Shown one piece after another: positions 50,141 to 61,652 of a stretch of DNA of 64,000 bases. The position numbers and the translations under genes are program-made. Within the stretch, counting starts at the first letter, position 1; every line of letters starts with the position of its first letter. Origin of the DNA: Bradyrhizobium diazoefficiens (GTDB taxonomy: Bacteria; Pseudomonadota; Alphaproteobacteria; Rhizobiales; Xanthobacteraceae); contig NZ_CP067100.1 in the NCBI RefSeq assembly GCF_016616235.1, positions 1,981,001 through 2,045,000 of the forward strand, in the 5' to 3' direction. Under the pieces are notes generated by a model. The model searched no databases. It saw nothing but the letters and a program-made list of their open reading frames with translations, and was not told the origin of the DNA.

Positions 50141-50677
50141 TCAGTTCATCATCGCCAGCGTCGGGCGCTGGTTCTCGCCGCCCCCAATGATGGCAGGGAT
50201 GTCCGTCGCCTCGCCGGCGATCATGTGCGACATGCTCCAGAACAGGCGGGCGAGGCGGGAGAACACCAGCCGTTCGCGCTCGGCGGGAACGGTGCCGTCC
50301 GGGATCGTCACCGTCTCGAGGCCAACCACTTTCTTGAAGTCGGGCCACATCGTCATTGACTGCGCGATCACCGAGTAGCAGCGCGGATCGTCCTCGCTTT
50401 CGTCGGGCGCCGGCGGCAGGCCTGGATATTGAGTGGGTGCGGCGTAGAATTTGTAGGCGCCGCAGCCGAGCTGGAGCAGGAACTTTTCGGAGACGGCGAC
50501 ATCGGCGGCAAACGACACCAGGCGCGCCTCGCTCAACACGTCCGGATCGATCGCGCTGAGGTCCGATGCGCGCAGCGCCGAGCAGAAGGCGAGGTCGCGA
50601 TTGTGCTCGCGGAGCAGGTTGGCCAGCGGCTGCTGCTGTTGCAGGGTGTCAGTGAGCAGGATGATGGTCTTGAGCAT
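50141..50677 (-). CDS. Degenerate formyltransferase-like protein
   Basis: The 178-residue protein starts MLKTIILLTDTLQQQQPLAN. The segment YKFYAAPTQYPG (residues 75-86) resembles the active-site loop YNFHPGPPEYPG of formyltransferase-fold proteins. Here the catalytic His is Tyr and the Asn is Lys, so formyl transfer seems lost or changed. I cannot assign a reaction. It lies 13 bases after the glycosyltransferase-like gene and is the last gene of a three-gene operon. Confidence 0.6.
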   Translation of the reverse strand: MLKTIILLTDTLQQQQPLANLLREHNRDLAFCSALRASDLSAIDPDVLSEARLVSFAADVAVSEKFLLQLGCGAYKFYAAPTQYPGLPPAPDESEDDPRCYSVIAQSMTMWPDFKKVVGLETVTIPDGTVPAERERLVFSRLARLFWSMSHMIAGEATDIPAIIGGGENQRPTLAMMN

Positions 50678-50690
50678 CGTGTGATGTCCG

Positions 50691-52016
50691 TCAGGGCAAG
50701 AGATGGCGTGCGGTCGTGACCGCCTCGTCGGCGGCATGGGCTGCGAAGAAATCGTTGGCGATGCGCTGCCCCGGCGCGATCTCCAGGATGCGGTAGCGCG
50801 CAAGCGCCGCAGCGTCGCGCGCGGGACCGATGTCATCCTGCCAGGCGCAGAGCGTCAGTTCGAGCCGGCCGTATCCGCCGCAATCGGCGGCATAGGCGCC
50901 GGTCACGGCTTCCACCGTCGCGGCGACCGCGCCGGCATCGCTGGCGGAAACATCGCGCAGGATCACGGCGATGCCATTGCCGGCCTCGACCTTCGAGGTC
51001 ATCACCATGAAGGCATCGCGGGGGCCGGTGCGTCCGGCGCGGCGGGCCGCGCGCGCGATGCCGGCGAAGCCATGATCTGGGCCGAGGTCCAGTGTTGTGG
51101 TCTGCGCGTTGTGCAGGATCGTGGCGCGCATCGCGCCAAGGTCCCCCTTCAGCGCGTGATAGGACCGCGGCAGCCACACGGTGTCGAGCGGCACCTGCGA
51201 GGAGGTCAGGCTCCAGGCCTGGTCGAGCAGGTAGCCCTCCCAGATCGCAGGAAACGACGCGGCAAGCTGCTGCCAGGTGCGGAGCAGCATTTCGGCGCGG
51301 GCGGTGCGGCCGAGATAGAGCGTGCGCGCCGACATCTCCCAGCGATTCCATTTGTGCAGGGCGACGTCGCAGCCAAGGAAGGACGGCAGCAGCGGCGCTT
51401 CGCGCAAGATCGCACCGGCCTCGACGAACAGCAGCGGCTCGCGATATTTGTTCCACATCCGCAGCAAGAACTCGGTCTTCTCGAAGCAGAGAACGCGATC
51501 GTCGAGCTGCGTGTCGATCGGCTCGATATGGCAGCCAAGGTCAAAGCGCTCGAGCGAGTGCCGCAGGGCGAAAGCCGCGGTCGCATCGCCGCCGCGTGGA
51601 TAGCAGGAAACGATCCGCGGCCGGACCGTGGACGCATCAGCAGCGGTGAGGAATTTCGACCAGCCGATGCCGCCCCACCACAGCTCGTGCGGGCCGTCCG
51701 CGCCGCAGGGGCCGACGGTGCCGAACTCGGTCAGCTTGGACTTGAGGAAATCGAAGCCGGGATTCTCGCTGGTGGGAATGACGACGGCACAGCCGGGCGT
51801 GAGCGCGCGGTAGAACAGCTCGGCCGCGGCGCCGCTCGGCGGCTCCTTCAGGATGATGACGCCGCTGCGCCGGCCCTCGCCGGCGCCGTCGAGCCTCAGT
51901 GCGCCGTACTGGCCCACCAGCCAGTCCAGGCGATCGCGCTGGGCCCGGCCGAGCCTGATGCCGCCGAATTGCAGCAGCCGATCAAGGTTTTCGTGCGTCC
52001 CGTCCGTCAAGCCCAT
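50691..52016 (-). CDS. Glycosyltransferase-like protein of unknown specificity
   Basis: The protein has 441 residues from the ATG at 52016; a TTG five codons earlier is possible. The middle part looks like a nucleotide-sugar-transferase fold: DDRVLCFEKTEFLLRMWNKY, EPLLFVEAGAILREAPLLPS (the DxD-like position reads EAG), then EMSARTLYLGRTARAEMLLR and WEGYLLDQAWSL. The N-terminal 130 residues are different and unassigned. A second section (DAFMVMTSKVEAGNGIAVIL) begins near residue 330. Neighbours on the same strand are a HAD protein and a formyltransferase-like protein, which suggests glycan synthesis. Confidence 0.55.
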   Translation of the reverse strand: MGLTDGTHENLDRLLQFGGIRLGRAQRDRLDWLVGQYGALRLDGAGEGRRSGVIILKEPPSGAAAELFYRALTPGCAVVIPTSENPGFDFLKSKLTEFGTVGPCGADGPHELWWGGIGWSKFLTAADASTVRPRIVSCYPRGGDATAAFALRHSLERFDLGCHIEPIDTQLDDRVLCFEKTEFLLRMWNKYREPLLFVEAGAILREAPLLPSFLGCDVALHKWNRWEMSARTLYLGRTARAEMLLRTWQQLAASFPAIWEGYLLDQAWSLTSSQVPLDTVWLPRSYHALKGDLGAMRATILHNAQTTTLDLGPDHGFAGIARAARRAGRTGPRDAFMVMTSKVEAGNGIAVILRDVSASDAGAVAATVEAVTGAYAADCGGYGRLELTLCAWQDDIGPARDAAALARYRILEIAPGQRIANDFFAAHAADEAVTTARHLLP

Positions 52017-52071
52017 GCCCCCTCGTGCCAACCCTTCGACTTCAACGGTCGGGACGGCGCGATCAGGCGCG

Positions 52072-54501
52072 CTATTTGAGGCTGGAGCCGAGCGGCGTGA
52101 TTGCCACGCAATAGATCGCGATGTCCTTCGTCATCGAGGCGACCGGGATCAGCACGCAGCCGTCCGCGCTCTCGGCGCGATAATGGTCGCCATTCCGCTG
52201 TATCCCGGCATAGACCAGGCTTTCAGCCGTGATGCCGATCACCTCCTGGCTCTCGGCGGCGTCGCGGACGTCGTCCGCGGTCTGGAGGGTCACGCCATGC
52301 AGCAGGCCTTCGGCGGCAAACCTCGGCAGCGGCAGCGCGATCATGGCGATGCCCATTGCGCGCGAGACCGGAATGCGCACGCGCAATTCACCGAGACCGG
52401 TGCGATGGACGGTCACCGTCTCCAGCGTTGCTTCGCCGCCGGCGCGGAACAACCCAACCTGAACCGGACCGGAGGGGCTCTCCCCAAAAACGTCGGCCGG
52501 CAGGCGGTTGGCGCCGAACAGCGCATAGAGATAGGCGTAGGAGGGCGACAGGCACGCAAAGCTGCCCGCAAGCCACATCGGCGGCGCGGTCGAGGTGCAG
52601 GCAGCCGAGAGGCCCCGCGCGACGATCTGCCGGCGGATGAAATCGCCGTCTAGCATCGGCGCCAGCGCATGGGTGCCGAGATTGACGTCGTGCTTCAATC
52701 CGCCGAGCAGGGCCAGCTCGTCCTCGTCGGGCAGCAGCAGCAGGCGCGCCAGCGTCGCCGCGCACCAGCGCGCGGCGGTTTCGGCTGCGGCGTAGGGGGC
52801 GAGGCGGAGGTCGAGCGCAACGGCTTCGGCACCGTCTGCAAAGGCGAGGGCGCCGGCCTGGATCTCGGCCGCCAGTGCGACCTGGCTTTCGGGGCGCGGA
52901 TTGATCTCGCGCAGCACCCGGCCGCCGTCATAGTCGCGCACCGACCCGTCGGCCGAGCAGCAGATCTGCTCCAGCAGTGCGACGTTGCGGATCAGCATGC
53001 GCTTGACGTGAGGCGTGACCACGAGGTCGGAGACGAACCCTGCCGCGCTGTCCTGCTCGGCGATGTCACCGAAGGCGTCGTCGAGCGAGATCAGGTAGGC
53101 GCCATGCAGGCGGATCTTGATGCCTTCGATGTCGAAGATGCGGCGCAGGGCCTTCTGCACGCTGCCGGAGTAGCCGAGATCGGCGAGCACGAGGTCGGTA
53201 CAGTGGTCGAAGCTGGGGATGGTATGGCGGAAGTAGGCGAGCAGCCGGGCCCGCAGGCCTGCAGCAAGCTCGACGATTTCGGTCGCATCCATCAGGCCGG
53301 GAAGCGCGTCGGCGAGCTCTTCACCGGACGCGATGCCGTCGGAAAAGCCGGCAAAGAACGCCGCGACCTTCGGCGGCATGATCTTCACCATGTCGCGGAA
53401 GGCCGGAGCGTCGATTTTCAGGATCTTGCTGAGGAGATCGACGAGCGGTTGCATCGTGTCAGCGGAGGCGATCAGGCTGACGCGGCGATTGACCTCGATA
53501 TAGGCCGCCGTCCCCCCGTGCAGGTCCTGCCAGATCCGGTGCGATAGAAAGCCGTCGCGGCCGAGAAAACCGAGCGCGGCCGTCCGGCCGGGACCTGCCA
53601 CCTCTTCGCAGCGCCTTGCCACGAAAGCGTCAAAGGCCGCCATCACTGGGCCGAGGACGGTCAGGCCCAGGTGGAAGGCGGGAGATCTTTCGGCGCTGCG
53701 CGCGGCGACCATGCGTCGCAAGGTGCGCGTGCCGTGGTCGAGCCGTGATGGCCCGCCCGTGCACAACAGCTCGAACAGTGCGGTCTCGCGCTGAAATTTG
53801 GAAGCGAGCCAAGCCGCGGCCTGCGGATAGTAGCGTGGCCGAATGCCGTGGCGCTTCGCCCCCTTGACGTCGGCCTTGTCATTGTCGCCGATATGAAAGG
53901 AGGCGCTGGCGTCGATGCCCTCGTTGGCCAGGTACGTTGCGAACAGCGTCTCGCTCTTGCTGCTGCCGTGATCGCAGGACGCGTAGAGGAAGTCCCAGGT
54001 CAGGCCGGGATGGCAAGCGCGCAGCAGCCGCGCCAGCCGGCCCGAATCCCAATAGGTGTCGGAGATGAATCCGACACGGTGACCAGCGTGCTTCATGTCC
54101 ACATATTGCCGAAGCATGTCCGGATTGGCGCGGCAGAGCTCGAGCTCGGCGGCGAACTCCGATTCGACGAGGTCGTTCAGATCGCGGCGCGCGAGGCCGA
54201 ACAGGTTGAACGGAAAGAACGAATAGATTTCCTCGATATGCACTTCGCTTCCGCCGCGTTTCTCCTTCGCGGTTCGGCGTGCACGCGATTCGGCCTGGAT
54301 TCGATGCTGAACGAAACTCGCGGAAACATTCGGACAAGTTCTTGAAATGCCGGAAAGCCCGTAAGTCCTTTCAAATACGCCGTCTGGCGTCGTGCACGCG
54401 CGAAGCAGAAACGTATCGAAAACATCGAACGACCAAGCAGAAACAATTTGCGCGCGGCGCTCCAGCGCGGCCATTGCGATCGTCATGCTGCAATTCCCCA
54501 T
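52072..54501 (-). CDS. Large HAD-superfamily protein of the glycan-cluster type (COG5610-like)
   Basis: The protein has 809 residues; a second ATG at 54486, with GGGGA upstream, may be the real start. The N-terminal HAD domain (25-235) has motif I WSFDVFDTFLLRA, motif II GFISDTYWDSGRL and motif IV FHIGDNDKADVKGAKRHGIR. In the middle are LGFLGRDGFLSHRIWQDLHG and LVLADLGYSGSVQKALRRIF, which recur in large HAD proteins of polysaccharide clusters. The last 250 residues are unassigned. The gene heads a three-gene operon that lies back to back with the flagellin region. Enzymatic role is unknown. Confidence 0.7.
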   Translation of the reverse strand: MGNCSMTIAMAALERRAQIVSAWSFDVFDTFLLRACTTPDGVFERTYGLSGISRTCPNVSASFVQHRIQAESRARRTAKEKRGGSEVHIEEIYSFFPFNLFGLARRDLNDLVESEFAAELELCRANPDMLRQYVDMKHAGHRVGFISDTYWDSGRLARLLRACHPGLTWDFLYASCDHGSSKSETLFATYLANEGIDASASFHIGDNDKADVKGAKRHGIRPRYYPQAAAWLASKFQRETALFELLCTGGPSRLDHGTRTLRRMVAARSAERSPAFHLGLTVLGPVMAAFDAFVARRCEEVAGPGRTAALGFLGRDGFLSHRIWQDLHGGTAAYIEVNRRVSLIASADTMQPLVDLLSKILKIDAPAFRDMVKIMPPKVAAFFAGFSDGIASGEELADALPGLMDATEIVELAAGLRARLLAYFRHTIPSFDHCTDLVLADLGYSGSVQKALRRIFDIEGIKIRLHGAYLISLDDAFGDIAEQDSAAGFVSDLVVTPHVKRMLIRNVALLEQICCSADGSVRDYDGGRVLREINPRPESQVALAAEIQAGALAFADGAEAVALDLRLAPYAAAETAARWCAATLARLLLLPDEDELALLGGLKHDVNLGTHALAPMLDGDFIRRQIVARGLSAACTSTAPPMWLAGSFACLSPSYAYLYALFGANRLPADVFGESPSGPVQVGLFRAGGEATLETVTVHRTGLGELRVRIPVSRAMGIAMIALPLPRFAAEGLLHGVTLQTADDVRDAAESQEVIGITAESLVYAGIQRNGDHYRAESADGCVLIPVASMTKDIAIYCVAITPLGSSLK

Positions 54502-54999
54502 CCACCAGCACGATTAACGTGCGCATGCGCGAGGTCAGGCGCCACATCAGCGAAAAAAGTTCACGCGCGATTCAAAATCGCGTTCGTCGCGACTGACAGA
54601 TTCAAAAAAATCGCTAGGTTCGAAAAAGGTGATTCGGAAAAAATTGCCGGGTGCGGAAGTCGTCTTGCGTTCATTCACACCCGGAAACAATCGCGGCTTC
54701 ACGCGCGTCGTGCGCGGCGCGCTCGATCACCTAGTGCCGCGTAATGTCAGCGTTTTCTCTCAACGACATCTATTCAGGATGGATGATCCGCCATGGCGCG
54801 AGACGATGTGATGACTGCGGATGTGAGGTGCGGGATGATCGCGCAGTCGGCAATTATTGCCCGATACTCGGCAAAATCGACCGGCTAACATCTTGAAAAA
54901 CAACAAAAATTCTCCGCCTGGATCGTTTTGGTGCCGCGTTCAACGCCTGGAAGCCGTGTGGCATGTGTGCCGCCGGCATTGCGGGTTGGAGATTGCGGG
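54502..54999. promoter_or_regulatory. 498-bp AT-rich divergent region upstream of the ECF sigma gene
   Basis: The region must hold promoters for the HAD-led operon and for the sigma factor gene. It is clearly richer in A-tracts than its surroundings (around 54540-54660 and 54890-54910). No reading frame with a ribosome site and plausible composition is present. No -35/-10, -24/-12 or RNA element could be assigned with confidence. Confidence 0.5.
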
Positions 55000-55698
55000 A
55001 TGAGTTACGCTGCTGATGTCATGGCTCCCGCCGCGGCCGAGATTGCGACGACAGCGCCGGCCGAAATCGCCGTGCCGATGATGCCGTCGGCGCCGCTCGC
55101 GCCGGACAGCGCGCCTGGTGCCGCCGAAATCGTCTTCGATGAAGACAGCGAACTCCTCGACAGGCTCGCTGCCAACGACGAGGCGGCGTTCCGAATTCTG
55201 GTCGAGCGTCATATCGACCGCGCCTATGCGATCGCGCTGCGCATCGTCGGCAATGCGGCGGACGCCGAAGACGTGGTGCAGGACACCATGCTCAAGATCT
55301 GGAGCCATCGCGGCCGCTGGCAGCACGGCCGCGCCAAGTTCTCGACCTGGCTCTACCGCGTCATCTCCAACCGCTGCATCGACCTGCGCCGCAAGCCGCG
55401 CAACGAGAATGTCGAGACCGTACCCGAGCTCGCCGACGGCCAGCCCGGCGCCGTCGAGATCATCGAGCGCAACGAGCTGAATGACATGCTGGAGCTCGCC
55501 ATGCAGCGCCTGCCCGAGCAGCAGCGCATCGCGGTGATCTTCTCGTACCACGAGAACATGAGCAACGGCGAGATCGCCCAGGTGATGGACACCACGGTGG
55601 CGGCGGTCGAGTCGCTGCTCAAGCGCGGCCGCCAGCAGCTGCGCCAGCTGCTGCGCAAGCACGAGCGCGACATCCGCACCGCGTTTACCGACTGCTAA
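55000..55698 (+). CDS. ECF-family RNA polymerase sigma factor
   Basis: The protein has 232 residues from MSYAADVMAPAA, with GGAG ten bases upstream. An Ala/Pro-rich leader of about 45 residues precedes region 2 (FRILVERHIDRAYAIALRIV, DAEDVVQDTMLKIW, FSTWLYRVISNRCIDLRRKP). Region 4 is LPEQQRIAVIFSYHENMSNG, then VMDTTVAAVESLLKRGRQQL. No anti-sigma factor gene adjoins it. It is 140 bases upstream of fliC, so control of the second flagellar locus is an attractive idea, but the sequence does not prove it. Confidence 0.9.
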   Translation: MSYAADVMAPAAAEIATTAPAEIAVPMMPSAPLAPDSAPGAAEIVFDEDSELLDRLAANDEAAFRILVERHIDRAYAIALRIVGNAADAEDVVQDTMLKIWSHRGRWQHGRAKFSTWLYRVISNRCIDLRRKPRNENVETVPELADGQPGAVEIIERNELNDMLELAMQRLPEQQRIAVIFSYHENMSNGEIAQVMDTTVAAVESLLKRGRQQLRQLLRKHERDIRTAFTDC

Positions 55699-55713
55699 CC
55701 ATAAAATCTCCCT

Positions 55714-55729
55714 CGCGAAAATTTTCGCG
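55714..55729. other. Perfect 16-bp palindrome between the sigma gene and fliC
   Basis: CGCGAAAATTTTCGCG is fully self-complementary. It lies 16 bases after the sigma gene stop and 110 bases before fliC. The transcript could form a short hairpin, or the DNA could bind a dimeric regulator. No T-run follows. Confidence 0.65.
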
Positions 55730-55838
55730 CCTGATCTTCTTGCGCTCCGCCGTTTGAGCGAACGGACGGGGCTGCGGTCTGCGTCGTCAATCGTCTCAAC
55801 GATGCGGCACGCCATGCCCATCAGCACAGGAGCTTCCA

Positions 55839-56663
55839 ATGCCTGCAATCAACACCAACACCGCCGCGAACTCCGCGGTCCGCTACCTCAACATCAACTC
55901 CGCGCAGGAGAGCAGCTCGCTCGCGAAGCTGTCGAGCGGCTCGCGCATCACCTCGGCCTCCGACGACGCCGCGGGCCTCGCGATCTCGACCCGCATCTCC
56001 TCGGACGTCACCACGCTGCAGCAGGCCGCGACCAATGCCTCGCAGGCGACCGCGATCCTCCAGACCGCCGACGGCGGCGCCTCGAACATCTCCGACATCC
56101 TGGCGCGCATGAAGTCGCTGGCCTCCGAATCCGCCTCGGGCACCACGACCGACTCCAGCCGCGCCTACATCAACTCGGAATTCTCCCAGCTCACCAGCGA
56201 AATCGATTCGATCTCGACCGGCACGCGTTATTCCAGCCAGAGCCTTCTGGACGGCACGAGCGTGTTCTCCTCGGGCGTGTCCGTGCTGGTCGGCTCCTCC
56301 GGCTCCGACACCATCACCATCACGCTGGCCAGCCTGACGTCGTCGTCGCTCGGCGTCTCCTCGCTCGATGTCAGCACGCTGTCGGACGCGACCTCGGCGC
56401 TGACCGCGCTCGATACCGCGATCGACACCGTCTCGGCCGCCCGCGCCAGCATCGGCGCGCAGGAATCCCGGTTCAACTTCTCGTCCGACTCGATCTCGAC
56501 CCAGACCCAGAACCTGCAGTCCGCGAACTCGGCGATCAAGGACGTCGACATCGCGTCCGAACAGGCCAAGCTGTCCTCCGCCGAAGTGAAGACCCAGGCC
56601 GCGGTGTCGGCCGAATCAGCGGCGAACCAGATGCCGCAGTACCTGCTCAAGCTCCTCGGCTAA
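55839..56663 (+). CDS. fliC: Flagellin (short form, system 2)
   Basis: The 274-residue protein has the D0/D1 flagellin helices: MPAINTNTAANSAVRYLNIN, LAKLSSGSRITSASDDAAGL and the C-terminal IKDVDIASEQAKLSSAEVKT, ending QMPQYLLKLLG. The central region is short (about residues 140-190) and very rich in Ser and Thr, offering many O-glycosylation sites. There is no Cys. An AGGAG site is eight bases before the ATG. A strong hairpin follows, so the gene can be expressed above fliD. The N-terminus differs from the usual rhizobial flagellins. Confidence 0.95.
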   Translation: MPAINTNTAANSAVRYLNINSAQESSSLAKLSSGSRITSASDDAAGLAISTRISSDVTTLQQAATNASQATAILQTADGGASNISDILARMKSLASESASGTTTDSSRAYINSEFSQLTSEIDSISTGTRYSSQSLLDGTSVFSSGVSVLVGSSGSDTITITLASLTSSSLGVSSLDVSTLSDATSALTALDTAIDTVSAARASIGAQESRFNFSSDSISTQTQNLQSANSAIKDVDIASEQAKLSSAEVKTQAAVSAESAANQMPQYLLKLLG

Positions 56664-56742: not shown

Positions 56743-58440
56743 GTGACCAGCGTCAGTTCGAGCACCAGCAGCACGTCGACCACGAGCTCATCGAGCGCTT
56801 CCTCGGTGACCACGACCGGGACCAGCACGTCGACCAGCGTCGACTGGAGCGCGCTGATCACCGCGGCGGTGAACGCCAAGCTTGTCCAGGCGACCACGAT
56901 CTCGACCACGATCACCGCCAACGAGGCCAAGATCTCGGCCTACCAGACCCTGCAGACCGATCTTTCGACGCTGTCGAGCGGGCTGTCTTCACTCGCGACT
57001 TCCGTCGTCAATTCGTTGGCGACCAACGTCTTCGCCACCCGTGCGGCGACGCTCAGCTCGACCGGCGACGTGAGCGCGTCCTCCGCGCTATCCATGTCGG
57101 TCAGCAACGGCGCGGCGACTGGCGACCACACGCTGACGATCAGCCAGATCGCGACAGCGCACAAAGTGCTCGGCACCTCGCAGTCGAGCCAGACCAGCGA
57201 GCTCGGCTATTCCGGCACCTTCTCGATCGGCCTCGAGGGCGGGACCACGTCCGACATCACCATCGACAGCACGATGTCGCTCCAGGACATCGTCGACAGC
57301 ATCAACGCCCAGACCTCGAGCACCAATGTCCAGGCCTCGATCGTCCAGGTGTCGAGCGGGTCATATGAAATGGTGCTGACCGGGACCGAGGACGCCGCCG
57401 ACATCACCTATTCCAGCACGTCCGGCGACGATATCCTCAACAAGCTCGGGGTGACCGACACTACCGGCACCTTCGCTGACGTGCTCCAGACCTCGCAGGT
57501 CGCCGAGTTCACCCTCGACGGCATTTCGATGACGCGGGATACCAACGACATCACCGACGTGCTCACCGGCGTGACGTTCAACCTGCTCCAGGCGACGCCC
57601 GACGGGGCGACCGTGGACATCAGCATCGAGCCCGACACCAGCCAGATCGAGACGGCGGTCGAGACCTTCGTCACCAATTACAACACCTTTCGCGATGCGG
57701 TCATCGCGCAGCAGGCGACCGGCTCGGACGGCACGGCGGATTCGAGCGCGGTGCTGTTCGGCGACGGCACCATGCGCGACATCATGGACGCGCTGCAGAA
57801 CGCGCTCAACAGCACGGTGGGCGGGCTCACCATGGCCGACCTCGGCCTCTCCTTCAACGAGAAGAACGAGCTCGAGCTCGACACCTCGACCTTGTCCGAG
57901 ATCCTCAGCACCAATCTGAGCGGCGTCACGACGTTGCTGTCGGCGCAGACCAAGACCTCGTCGAGCCAGCTCACCGTCGTCAACACCGGAACCTCGCCGC
58001 AGTCCTTCACGCTCGATCTCACGGTGGATTCCGACGGCAATCTCTCCTCGGCCTCGGTCGGCGGCGATGCGTCGCTGTTCACGGTCAGCGGCACCACGAT
58101 CATCGGCGTTGCCGGAACGGCCTATGCCGGCATGGCCTTCACTTACTCGGGCTCGACGTCGCAGTCGATCACGGTGACCTCGACCTCCGGCATCGCCACC
58201 CAGCTCTACCAGATTTCCAAGAACTACTCGTCGAGCTCGGGCGCGTTGCAGACGTTGATCACCAACCTCACGGATCGTGACGACAAGCTCCAGCAGAAGG
58301 TGGACGACATCGAGAGCGCCGCCTCCGCCTATCAGACACAGCTCCAGACCCAATACGCAAGCTACCAGGCCGCGATCGAGAGCGCCAACAACACGCTCAC
58401 CTATCTCAAGGCCCTGCTCAACTCCAGCTCGAGTGATTGA
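56743..58440 (+). CDS. fliD: FliD, flagellar filament cap (system 2)
   Basis: The protein has 565 residues from a GTG. It has a Ser/Thr-rich N-terminus, the FliD N-terminal domain (VDWSALITAAVNAKLVQATT, then ITANEAKISAYQTLQTDLST), the hook-associated repeats and the C-terminal domain (SSGALQTLITNLTDRDDKLQ, then YQTQLQTQYASYQAAIESAN, NTLTYLKALL). It caps the filament tip and folds flagellin there. Its stop is two bases before fliS. FliD is absent from the rhizobial-type cluster at the left of the window. Confidence 0.95.
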   Translation: MTSVSSSTSSTSTTSSSSASSVTTTGTSTSTSVDWSALITAAVNAKLVQATTISTTITANEAKISAYQTLQTDLSTLSSGLSSLATSVVNSLATNVFATRAATLSSTGDVSASSALSMSVSNGAATGDHTLTISQIATAHKVLGTSQSSQTSELGYSGTFSIGLEGGTTSDITIDSTMSLQDIVDSINAQTSSTNVQASIVQVSSGSYEMVLTGTEDAADITYSSTSGDDILNKLGVTDTTGTFADVLQTSQVAEFTLDGISMTRDTNDITDVLTGVTFNLLQATPDGATVDISIEPDTSQIETAVETFVTNYNTFRDAVIAQQATGSDGTADSSAVLFGDGTMRDIMDALQNALNSTVGGLTMADLGLSFNEKNELELDTSTLSEILSTNLSGVTTLLSAQTKTSSSQLTVVNTGTSPQSFTLDLTVDSDGNLSSASVGGDASLFTVSGTTIIGVAGTAYAGMAFTYSGSTSQSITVTSTSGIATQLYQISKNYSSSSGALQTLITNLTDRDDKLQQKVDDIESAASAYQTQLQTQYASYQAAIESANNTLTYLKALLNSSSSD

Positions 58441-58442
58441 TC

Positions 58443-58868
58443 ATGCATAATCCGATGGCGTACATGGCCAACCAGGCCTATCGGGGAGCCGCGACCAGCG
58501 TGCCGCCGCTTAAGGCGATTTCGATGCTGCTCGGCGGCGCGATCACCTTCCTCCAGAAGTCGCTGACGGCGCAGGAAGCGCGCCGCTTCGAGGAGGGGCA
58601 CGAGTATCTGATGAAAGCGACCGCGATCCTGCGCGGGCTCAGCCACAATCTGGATTTCACCAAAGGCGGCGCGGTGGCGGAGCGGCTGTTCCAGACCTAT
58701 AACGCACTGATCCTGGCGAGCCTCAAGGCGTTCGGCCGCCCGCATGCGCGCGAGAGTTTTGGACGCATCACCGCCGGGCTGACCGAGCTGAAGGAGGCCT
58801 GGGAGCAGGTCGACGCGACGGCGCGGGGCGCCAAGGCCGCGCCGGCCGATTCGGCCCGCAAGGGCTGA
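58443..58868 (+). CDS. fliS: FliS, flagellin export chaperone (system 2)
   Basis: The 141-residue helical protein has the FliS pattern: a start with Tyr near residue 14 (MAYMANQAYRGAATSVPPLK, compare the family's YxxxxVxTASP), ISMLLGGAITFLQKSLTAQE, and a last helix HARESFGRITAGLTELKEAW. It binds the C-terminus of flagellin until export. The fliC-fliD-fliS order is classical. The Pro/Ala-rich tail is extra. Confidence 0.88.
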   Translation: MHNPMAYMANQAYRGAATSVPPLKAISMLLGGAITFLQKSLTAQEARRFEEGHEYLMKATAILRGLSHNLDFTKGGAVAERLFQTYNALILASLKAFGRPHARESFGRITAGLTELKEAWEQVDATARGAKAAPADSARKG

Positions 58869-59036: not shown

Positions 59037-59309
59037 ATGGACGTCACCGAGTTTGAGGAACTGATCGATCGGCTGGGCGAGGATCTCTCGCTCTGGCCCG
59101 ACGATCGACGCCTGCCCGCCGAAGAGCTGCTGGCGCAATCGGCCGCCGCGCAAGCCCTGCTCGACGAGGCGCGCGCCTTGCGCCACGCGCTCGCCGCGCC
59201 CGCCGTCCGCGCGCCCAAAGGCCTCGCCGACCGCATCGTCGCCGCGGCTGCGAAACTGAAGGGCGACACCACCGAGCCGCGCACCGAAGGCGAGACGGCG
59301 GAGAGCTGA
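59037..59309 (+). CDS. Small acidic helical protein of unknown function
   Basis: The 90-residue protein starts MDVTEFEELIDRLGEDLSLW. The following PDDRRLPAEELLAQSAAAQA and LLDEARALRHAL resemble the N-terminal part of small proteins often found with ECF sigma factors in alphaproteobacteria. There is no membrane segment. A role as a soluble partner of the sigma factor at 55000 is possible but speculative. It stands 168 bases after fliS. Confidence 0.6.
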   Translation: MDVTEFEELIDRLGEDLSLWPDDRRLPAEELLAQSAAAQALLDEARALRHALAAPAVRAPKGLADRIVAAAAKLKGDTTEPRTEGETAES

Positions 59310-59482: not shown

Positions 59483-59685
59483 CGGCGCCACTGCGGCGCT
59501 AAATCAGCTTGAACTCGCCGCTTCCCAAGTTGCGCATGCGGCAGATTTTGCCGTGTCGAAAGCCGATTTCTCGCGCGCGAATCCTCGCCTGAATCCGCGC
59601 ACCCACGCGTTTCATCAGCACACAGATTTCAAGCACAGCCGAGTGGCACCTGATCGCCGGCAGCGCAGGAAAGCCGGAGCTTCTG

Positions 59686-60354
59686 ATGACCGTTTCCGCC
59701 ACGAGTTCAGCAACGACTGCAACCACGACGTCATCGTCGTCGTCGAGCACGTCGTCCAGTTCGTCGCTCACATCAAGTGATTTCCTCAGCCTGCTCGTCA
59801 GCGAGCTTCAGAACCAGGATCCGCTGAACGCGACGTCGACCACCGACTTCATCAATCAGCTCACCTCCTACGCCAATTTCACCCAGCAGCAATCGATCAA
59901 CTCCAACATGTCCTCGCTGGCGAGCTCGTTCTCGAGCCTCGTGACGCTCAACTCGGTGAACTATATCGGTCACACCGTGGAGGCGAAGACCGACACCTCG
60001 ACGCTGAGCAGCGGCTCGGCAACCTTCGGCTACTCGCTGTCGTCGGCCGCATCGAGCGTCTCGATCAGCATCTCGGATTCGTCGGGAAACGTCGTCTACA
60101 CCGGAACCGGGACCGGAAATTCCGGCTCGAACACCTTCACCTGGGACGGCAAGGATTCCAGCGGCAACCAGCTCGCGGACGGCGGCCAGTACACCATCTC
60201 GGTGACCGCGACGGACTCCGCCGGCAACTCGGTCCTCAACTACACGACCGTCACCGGCACGGTGACCGGCATCGACACCTCGACCTCCACGCCCTCGCTC
60301 ACGGTGAACGGCGTCTCGGTCAGCGCGGCCAACATCCTCGGCGTCACGTCCTGA
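59686..60354 (+). CDS. flgD: FlgD, hook-capping protein, long form (system 2)
   Basis: The 222-residue protein has a very Ser/Thr-rich N-terminus, then the FlgD signature SSDFLSLLVSELQNQDPLNA, continuing TSTTDFINQLTSYANFTQQQ. A full C-terminal part includes the FlgD Ig-like domain (GSNTFTWDGKDSSGNQLADG, then YTISVTATDSAGNSV). It is 82 residues longer than the FlgD of system 1. The two are therefore not recent duplicates. An AGGA-containing site precedes the ATG. Confidence 0.94.
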   Translation: MTVSATSSATTATTTSSSSSSTSSSSSLTSSDFLSLLVSELQNQDPLNATSTTDFINQLTSYANFTQQQSINSNMSSLASSFSSLVTLNSVNYIGHTVEAKTDTSTLSSGSATFGYSLSSAASSVSISISDSSGNVVYTGTGTGNSGSNTFTWDGKDSSGNQLADGGQYTISVTATDSAGNSVLNYTTVTGTVTGIDTSTSTPSLTVNGVSVSAANILGVTS

Positions 60355-60386: not shown

Positions 60387-61652
60387 ATGAGTCTCACCGG
60401 CGCATTGTCTTCGGCGATCTCGGCGCTCAGCGCCCAGAGCCAGTCCCTGTCGATGATCAGCGACAACATCGCCAACTCCGACACGACCGCCTACAAGACC
60501 ACGTCGGCGATGTTCGACGCGCTGGTCACCGCGTCGAGCAATACGACCTCCTACGCCTCGGGCGGCGTGACCGTCGCCGGCCGCGCCAACATCAGCCAGC
60601 AGGGCTTGCTGGCCGCGACCTCCAATGCCACCGACGTCGCGATCCAGGGCTCGGGTTTCTTCGTGGTGACCAGCGCCACATCAGGCGGCGTCACCTCCTA
60701 CACCCGCAACGGCGCCTTCACGATCAACAATGCGGGCTACCTCGAGAACAACGGAAGCTATCTGGAAGGATGGCGCACCGACGCGGACGGCAATGTCGTC
60801 GGCAGCGAGTCCGCCAGCAATCTCTCGGCCATCAACACCCAGATCGCCTCGACCAGCGGCAGCGCCACCACCAAGACCACAATCGCGGCCAATTTGCCCT
60901 CGGATGCGGCCACCGGCGACACCTATACCAGCTCGATGACGGTCTACGATTCGCTCGGTGCGGCGAATACGATGCAGATCACCTGGACCAAGACCGGCAG
61001 CAACGCCTGGAGCGCGAGCTTCGCCAATCCGACATCGACGTCCGACACGACGACCGCCACCGGCACGGCCTCCGGCACGATCGCCATCACCTTCAATAGC
61101 GACGGCTCGCTCGCCAGCACCAGCCCGGACCCCGCGACGGTCTCCATCACGGGCTGGACCGACGGTGCCGCCGATAGCACGATCACCATGGATCTCGGCA
61201 CTGTCGGCGCGACGGACGGTCTGACGCAATATGCGTCCGGTGAAACGACGCCGGCGGTGAACGTCACCAGCATCGATTCGGACGGCCTCTCCTACGGCAA
61301 GCTGTCGAGCGTCTCGATCGGCAAGAACGGCGTGGTCGACGCCACCTATTCCAACGGCGAGACCATCGCGATCTACAAGATCGCGGTGGCGACCTTTGCC
61401 GATCCCAACGGGCTCTCCGCCGCCAGCGACGGCCTCTATTCGGCGACGGTGACGTCCGGCAACGCCTCACTACAGGCCTCCGGCGAGAACGGCGCGGGCA
61501 CGATCTACGGCAGCGAGCTGGAATCCTCGACCACCGACACCTCCAGCCAGTTCTCGAGCATGATCTCGGCGCAGCAGGCCTATTCCGCCGCGTCCCAGGT
61601 CATCTCCACCGTCAACAAGATGTACGACACCCTGATCTCGGCGATGAGGTGA
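60387..61652 (+). CDS. flgE: FlgE, flagellar hook protein (system 2)
   Basis: The 421-residue protein has the N-terminal MSLTGALSSAISALSAQSQS followed by ISDNIANSDTTAYKTTSAMF. The C-terminal half includes SQFSSMISAQQAYSAASQVI and ends STVNKMYDTLISAMR. Its surface domain is rich in Ser, Thr and Gly and shows little resemblance to FlgE at 3251. It follows flgD by 33 bases and is followed by a small gene three bases later. Confidence 0.93.
   Translation: MSLTGALSSAISALSAQSQSLSMISDNIANSDTTAYKTTSAMFDALVTASSNTTSYASGGVTVAGRANISQQGLLAATSNATDVAIQGSGFFVVTSATSGGVTSYTRNGAFTINNAGYLENNGSYLEGWRTDADGNVVGSESASNLSAINTQIASTSGSATTKTTIAANLPSDAATGDTYTSSMTVYDSLGAANTMQITWTKTGSNAWSASFANPTSTSDTTTATGTASGTIAITFNSDGSLASTSPDPATVSITGWTDGAADSTITMDLGTVGATDGLTQYASGETTPAVNVTSIDSDGLSYGKLSSVSIGKNGVVDATYSNGETIAIYKIAVATFADPNGLSAASDGLYSATVTSGNASLQASGENGAGTIYGSELESSTTDTSSQFSSMISAQQAYSAASQVISTVNKMYDTLISAMR

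Follow-up and report, generated by a model that had tools for sequence, protein, structure and literature searches.

Known flagellin glycosylation uses nucleotide-activated sugars (for example pseudaminic or legionaminic acid, rhamnose or GlcNAc). The flagellar system closest to the one considered here is the RpoE6-Asf6-FliC2 cassette described for Azospirillum brasilense. The sections of PMC12826043 that deal with it report that Rhodopseudomonas palustris BisA53, Bradyrhizobium and Magnetospirillum have clusters syntenic with it, give sigma, fliC, fliD and fliS genes for B. diazoefficiens 110spc4, describe the small flagellin FliC2 of Azospirillum as likely glycosylated according to periodic acid-Schiff (PAS) staining, and call the role of the Bradyrhizobium flagellin cassette, with its extracytoplasmic function (ECF) sigma factor, undescribed. 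On the enzyme side the closest described systems are the CrpP-CriT domains of Bcs3 from Haemophilus influenzae type b and 7shg from Thermobacillus composti, whereas a precedent for protein-linked ribose is the alpha-Rib branch on the O-glycan of the C. difficile S-layer, as given in the available part of PMC6254364. We analyzed a stretch of 64,000 nucleotides from Bradyrhizobium diazoefficiens (contig NZ_CP067100.1, positions 1,981,001 to 2,045,000), hereafter called the window, in which three genes, designated A, B and C, lie next to a cassette of the RpoE6 type. Protein A very probably belongs, judging from its sequence and predicted fold, to a family of two-domain ribofuranosyltransferases dependent on phosphoribosyl pyrophosphate (PRPP), and we propose that the trio would be a protein-glycosylation module of this small-flagellin cassette, which would be under the control of an RpoE6-like ECF sigma factor of its own. 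As in Azospirillum brasilense, an ECF sigma gene stands next to fliC, fliD, fliS, flgD and flgE, with a short flagellin and a similar promoter. In contrast, the sigma gene is last in the Azospirillum cassette and first in the window, and the A-B-C trio is not mentioned in the sections of PMC12826043 on that cassette.

The genome is a single contig of 7.67 Mb, with its nearest relatives in Bradyrhizobium. On the minus strand the genes follow each other in the order A, B, C as three intact open reading frames (ORFs). An earlier note on this DNA had described them as co-directional and back to back beside the ECF sigma gene and fliC, and the coordinates confirm this, with gaps of 55 bases between A and B and 13 bases between B and C. 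The start codons of A and of the sigma gene are about 0.5 kb apart, sigma and fliC being divergent from the trio.

Gene A (52072..54486, minus strand, ORF open from 54501) encodes 804 residues, organized as a haloacid dehalogenase (HAD) phosphatase domain, a PRPP-type phosphoribosyltransferase domain and a beta-rich C-terminal part. The PRP/CrpP-like HAD domain (residues 13–222; 53821..54450, minus strand) has all four motifs complete, and D21, D24, S142, D143, K177, D201 and D206 are identical in 170/170 sequences, a set that includes near-duplicates between loci and protein matches. The gPRT/CriT-like domain (residues 253–605; 52672..53730, minus strand) retains R310, D311, R334, Y439, E506, G514, S515, H599 and D600 in all of the same 170 sequences. 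It carries the Arg-Asp pair of loop 1 (R310, D311), the acid of loop 3 (D436, invariant across the 31 rows of alignment A2) and the Glu and Ser of loops 5/6 (E506, S515), the loop assignment following the account of Bcs3 in the available part of PMC10299916 and not a Bcs3 alignment. The C-terminal part (residues 665–800; 52087..52494, minus strand) is defined by the AlphaFold2 secondary structure, in a block whose predicted local distance difference test (pLDDT) score is mostly above 80. In the profile comparison about 600 residues of A are colinear with 7shg, and in the fold comparison with Bcs3 as well as 7shg. In the predicted model both domain folds of the PRP-gPRT enzymes are present in a single chain. 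Domain order, HAD motifs and phosphoribosyltransferase motifs are common to the three proteins. On the other hand, neither a CroT nor an SH3b part is recognized in A, which has the additional beta-rich C-terminus, Asp436 for Glu818 of Bcs3, and a flagellar gene context where theirs is one of polysaccharide synthesis. The earlier note had seen in A a large HAD protein with an unassigned region; the HAD assignment holds, but the remainder is largely phosphoribosyltransferase-like, and its match to 7shg and Bcs3 led us to reject the description as a HAD domain plus unassigned sequence. The median ratio of nonsynonymous to synonymous substitution rates (dN/dS) of A against its relatives is 0.200.

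Gene B (50691..52016, minus strand, best start ATG 52016) encodes 441 residues; residue numbers given here are those of the 446-residue ORF open from TTG 52031. The structure model and the fold search of B indicate a GT-A fold with extra N- and C-terminal parts. Its core spans residues 136–313 (51093..51626, minus strand) and contains E204-A205-G206 and an invariant D270. The replacement of the DxD metal site by Glu-Ala-Gly (residues 204–206), to which the earlier note had drawn attention, is thus present. Across the family, in a set of 190 sequences that contains near-duplicates, the third DxD position is D in 51 and G in 131, whereas D270 is found in 190/190. Since the DxD site varies family-wide while other residues are invariant, B need not be dead, and the interpretation of B as degenerate and so inactive was rejected on these grounds. 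The fold neighbors of B include the metal-independent BoGT6a, and the median dN/dS against relatives is 0.186. The core fold is common to B and to GT-A enzymes such as the PBCV-1 capsid enzyme 2p72, BoGT6a, glycogenin and PF03407 proteins, from which B differs in its own N- and C-terminal parts, in the absence of DxD and in the lack of a PF03407 match. Indeed, B itself does not match PF03407 (Nucleotid_trans) in Pfam at E up to 1, whereas two of three short B relatives scanned from other genomes do; the B profile against PDB sequences gave a single chance-level match (E 1).

Gene C (50141..50677, minus strand, 178 residues) encodes a homologue of formyltransferases that is truncated and lacks the Asn-His pair. 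Window C has no Pfam match of its own, whereas PF00551 is matched in 4/4 full-length homologues scanned, so that its likeness to formyltransferases is due to its relatives only; with this restriction, the earlier note's view of C as a degenerate formyltransferase-like protein is borne out. Among 71 C sequences (the window and 70 loci), Asn-His-Asp is kept in 24, those of 240–245 residues, as it is in folate-dependent, ArnA-like PF00551 enzymes; the other 47, of 169–178 residues plus one 125-residue remnant, have lost the Asn in all cases and the His in 46. At the active site of window C the residues are K-Y-D. Its reading as a decaying pseudogene was rejected because the short C has a median dN/dS of 0.144 at dS 0.48 when the window is compared with the first 30 of the 42 loci in its clade, to be set against 0.101 for fliC over 29 loci. 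The sequences indicate that C derives from an intact formyltransferase which, in the window clade, has lost its active site and C-terminus and is retained under purifying selection. Of the two proteins that the earlier note held to lack catalytic residues, C has thus truly lost its active site whereas B need not be dead, and A is fully equipped. Its argument from missing residues is thus only half right, and the unusual chemistry would be located in A, with PRPP as predicted donor, a point that the note had not seen. The folds of A and B come from the structure prediction and fold search that it had suggested.

The gene neighborhood of the trio was compared over 72 B loci from public genomes, obtained from one degenerate-pattern search of which the best 80 of 81 confirmed matches were retained. 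A fliC gene lies close to B, upstream and divergent, in 68/72. Three of the exceptions are contig ends (L005, L038, L055); the fourth, in B. cajani (L070), lacks fliC, sigma and A and keeps remnants of B and C, with a flagellin/FlgL-family gene (Flagellin_C match) directly before the B tail, an arrangement that reads as a natural deletion. A or a piece of it is found in 65/72 loci and C or a piece of it in 70/72 (L072 is without C, L073 without A and C). All of A, B, C, sigma, fliC, fliD and fliS are present in 61/72. In a same-genus survey A, B and sigma co-occur as one block in the same 23/60 genomes, our own included, counting A and B matches better than 1e-100 and sigma matches better than 1e-30; the weaker A-like or B-like matches in four genomes (G015, G023, G048, G052) were excluded from this count. 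An order-wide B profile search found B in 14/397 genomes, again with our own among them. In one of them (G294) B stands beside sigma-fliC-fliD-fliS, and in another (G052) a distant B lies about 1.7 kb from flgK and a FlgL-like gene; in eight further genomes with weaker B matches no flagellar query gene was matched within the stretches scanned (L174-L181). One record titled Frankia sp. RB7 (L007) has a Bradyrhizobium-type locus at 86 percent identity, and the record name looks wrong.

Outside Bradyrhizobium, in other families, homologues of A are again met with next to flagellin genes. A class-wide A profile search over 385 genomes gave A-like matches in 12 genomes besides our own, with flagellar genes matched adjacent in three; these neighborhoods were scored by tblastn with the window cassette proteins, so that diverged flagellar genes could escape, and neighborhood gene names without a Pfam basis come from tblastn or by eye. 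In one of the three (G497, from another family), a nearly full-length A homologue of about 33 percent identity precedes sigma, three fliC genes and fliD, with a TPR protein matching Glyco_transf_9 nearby. In the two others (G598, G696) A is flanked by motB and by a methyltransferase gene, which in G598 matches PF13578, and the distance from A to fliC is about 1 kb. These two belong to a family (f64) that we guess to be sphingomonads, in which A homologues (E up to 1e-20) occur in 17/149 genomes. A flagellin gene lies 0.26–2.2 kb from A in 10 of these 17. Seven of the ten are within larger flagellar clusters (fliE, fliF or motAB, flgKL alongside), and in the other three (L255, L257, L258) the neighbor is a different short flagellin, which Pfam confirms, and a flgG-like gene lies close by. 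In several f64 loci the methyltransferase gene stands between A and fliC (L227:7894-8712, L223:11218-12030), which hints at a methylated sugar. In the available part of PMC13015449, on Sphingomonas flagellins, the string 'glycosylat' is found solely in the reference list.

When the intergenic regions between A and sigma and between sigma and fliC were aligned for the window and 60 loci, a common conserved block emerged, CGCCTGA-N15/16-CGTT. Before A (54516..54541, minus strand, N15) it ends 29 bp from the start codon and is present in 60/61 sequences tested and before 60/65 A genes or pieces; before fliC (55728..55754, plus strand, N16) it is found in 61/61 aligned sequences and 67/68 loci. 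The same motif precedes B (52044..52069, minus strand), 27 bp from ATG 52016, and is upstream of 55/72 B genes; it also precedes flgD (59586..59611, plus strand; 61/66 loci). As the regions upstream of A and fliC served to derive the motif, an independent test is provided solely by its occurrence before B and flgD. The window as a whole contains four copies, one before each of these four genes; for a slightly shorter pattern, 4 were found against 0.50 expected, a number reached by 1/100 shuffles. The genome has 23 matches against 6 for a backward control. Over 1.48 Mb of the 72 loci there are 252 matches, of which 243 sit upstream of fliC (67), flgD (61), A (60) or B (55), 3 upstream of sigma and 6 elsewhere. 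Four of the five photosynthetic Bradyrhizobium loci without A (L058, L059, L063, L065, L066) retain a copy of the motif at the place where A would start, about 400–450 bp ahead of B. The motif is similar to CGCCAG-N16-CGTGAG, the RpoE6 promoter that was mapped experimentally for fliC2 in Azospirillum, as reported in the sections of PMC12826043 concerned. The straightforward reading of the sequence is that A and B, with C behind B, lie in the regulon of a flagellar sigma factor, the motif being presumably bound by the cassette sigma factor. The adjacency, the ECF-type motif and the recurrence of A in other families lend much more weight to the earlier proposal of flagellar modification by the trio, flagellin itself still being the proposed acceptor.

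We consider it probable that the acceptor of the trio is flagellar and, with somewhat less assurance, favor a scheme in which the small flagellin, or else its hook or cap partners, would receive from B and A a glycan that contains ribofuranose. B would most likely add the first sugar, from a nucleotide donor, to Ser/Thr of the short FliC (or of FliD or FlgE) in the cytoplasm; that B acts first is suggested by its being kept where A is lost. The phosphoribosyltransferase domain of A would then transfer ribofuranose 5-phosphate from PRPP to the sugar added by B, or directly to the protein, and the HAD domain would remove the 5-phosphate, leaving a ribofuranosyl group, expected to be beta-linked (+132 Da). 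C may formylate the glycan in sister lineages; in the window clade, where this chemistry appears lost, it is perhaps kept as a structural partner. Whereas gene order, the family, fold and active sites of A, the fold of B, the losses in C, the motif and the recurrent linkage are read from the sequence, we infer the sugar, the use of PRPP, the order of steps, the linkage and the acceptor.

Several observations weigh against this scheme. The quality of the A model is modest (pLDDT 66), and its two-domain fold matches have root-mean-square deviations of about 21 A, so that the domain arrangement is not fixed; moreover, the Asp436 that stands for Glu818 of Bcs3 departs from the latter, being Asp as aligned in 7shg. 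A is absent from the five photosynthetic Bradyrhizobium loci and from L073, all of which have fliC and B, and L072 keeps only an A remnant, which means that A is not needed for flagellin everywhere. The linkage within Bradyrhizobium is partly due to common ancestry. Outside it, 9/12 class-wide A-like genomes have no flagellar query gene nearby, and the remaining 7/17 f64 loci have none in the flanking 9 kb or so in either direction, which would be expected of a wider family that acts on other glycans as well. Finally, the A homologue of G497 (L222:8727-11174) has lost most HAD motif residues and keeps those of the phosphoribosyltransferase, and might leave phosphoribose on the acceptor. The earlier note had held that its proposal would be refuted by homologues usually lying away from flagellin genes; for B in Bradyrhizobium and Rhodopseudomonas it is not, and for A outside these the picture is mixed.

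The alternative that survives best, although we regard it as unlikely, keeps the trio in the flagellar ECF regulon but has an acceptor other than flagellin, for instance a lipid-linked glycan, FliD or FlgE of the hook. It would account for the motif before flgD in a cassette with its own hook and cap genes, and it gains from the f64 homologues of A away from flagellar genes; against it, the flagellin gene itself is the close neighbor of A in most f64 loci, and the central part of FliC is rich in Ser/Thr (23/48 in residues 140–187), as the earlier note had recognized. Distinctly less probable is a trio in which B and C are catalytically dead scaffolds or chaperones and only A, or nothing, is enzymatic. 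Such a role would suit the Glu-Ala-Gly of B and the 178-residue C without Asn-His, and for C the dead-enzyme reading is likely right, but for B it conflicts with the variable third DxD position, the invariant D270 and the metal-independent fold neighbor. That the trio consists of ordinary lipopolysaccharide or capsule enzymes merely sitting beside fliC is the least probable of all, even though the nearest characterized A relatives make capsule and other polysaccharides (available parts of PMC10299916 and PMC11127046) and GT-A cores related to that of B also occur in loci without flagellar genes, given the linkage in 68/72 loci, the common promoter motif, the joint loss in L070, the recurrence with fliC in other families and the absence of any further recognized sugar-pathway or export gene among the scanned neighbors of the trio.

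The plus-strand genes divergent from the trio begin with the RpoE6-like ECF sigma factor (55000..55698 from ATG; NF009190 match 3.2e-129), in a gene order as described in the cassette sections of PMC12826043. It is followed by fliC for the short flagellin of 274 residues, the proposed acceptor (55839..56663; Pfam Flagellin_N 1e-33), fliD for the filament cap (56743..58440; FliD_C 7.4e-47), fliS for the flagellin chaperone (58437..58868; FliS 8e-20), a 90-residue ORF (59037..59309; conserved in 68/72 loci), flgD (59686..60354; FlgD 7e-16, FlgD_ig 1.5e-18; orthologue in 66/72 loci) and flgE for the hook (60387..61652; FlgE_D2 2.9e-17; orthologue in 65/72 loci). As a guess, the 90-residue ORF could be an anti-sigma partner like Asf6; its homologue in L073 has 149 residues with a hydrophobic stretch. 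FliC is 274–277 residues long in 69/69 sequences next to B (window and 68 loci). In two sigma-fliC cassettes without a matched trio gene, those of G078 and G071 (L202, L203), FliC is longer, spanning about 391 and 498 codons, a hint only at n=2. Flagellin_N is matched ten times in the genome, in nine cases above cut-off; the matches comprise the short window fliC, a FlgL-like cassette gene just beyond the window and groups at 1.97–1.99 Mb and 3.07–3.09 Mb; the window cassette is thus one of several filament systems. Flagellin positions are 1973867-1976652, 2036848 and 3081333-3086808, the long ones at 3.08 Mb lying in open frames of 770–786 codons. No match to PF01973, which we take to be the Maf family of flagellin glycosylation, was found in the genome, the control matching only in archaea. 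A, B and C match no phage families at E 0.01, and general promoter and terminator scans gave nothing exceeding shuffles.

PRPP-derived ribose chemistry is known from capsules and is not reported for flagella in the literature searched; the search for ribofuranosylated flagellin found no report, most subscription journals being outside its reach. On evenly balanced evidence, many alphaproteobacterial flagellins may carry PRPP-derived ribofuranose, and the flagellar settings concerned would be separate ones, at least two in number: the cassettes with an ECF sigma gene, and in f64 the motB-fliC clusters, there often with a methyltransferase following. If the proposed scheme is true, a recently described capsule chemistry would extend to protein modification by way of PRPP, a nucleotide precursor and not a nucleotide sugar, and motility would be tied to nucleotide metabolism. 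The Bradyrhizobium ECF-sigma flagellin cassette would acquire a testable product, with a mass shift of +132.04 Da per ribofuranose, or +212.01 Da with the HAD domain disabled. Moreover, the surface chemistry of flagellin may bear on how plants sense root bacteria.

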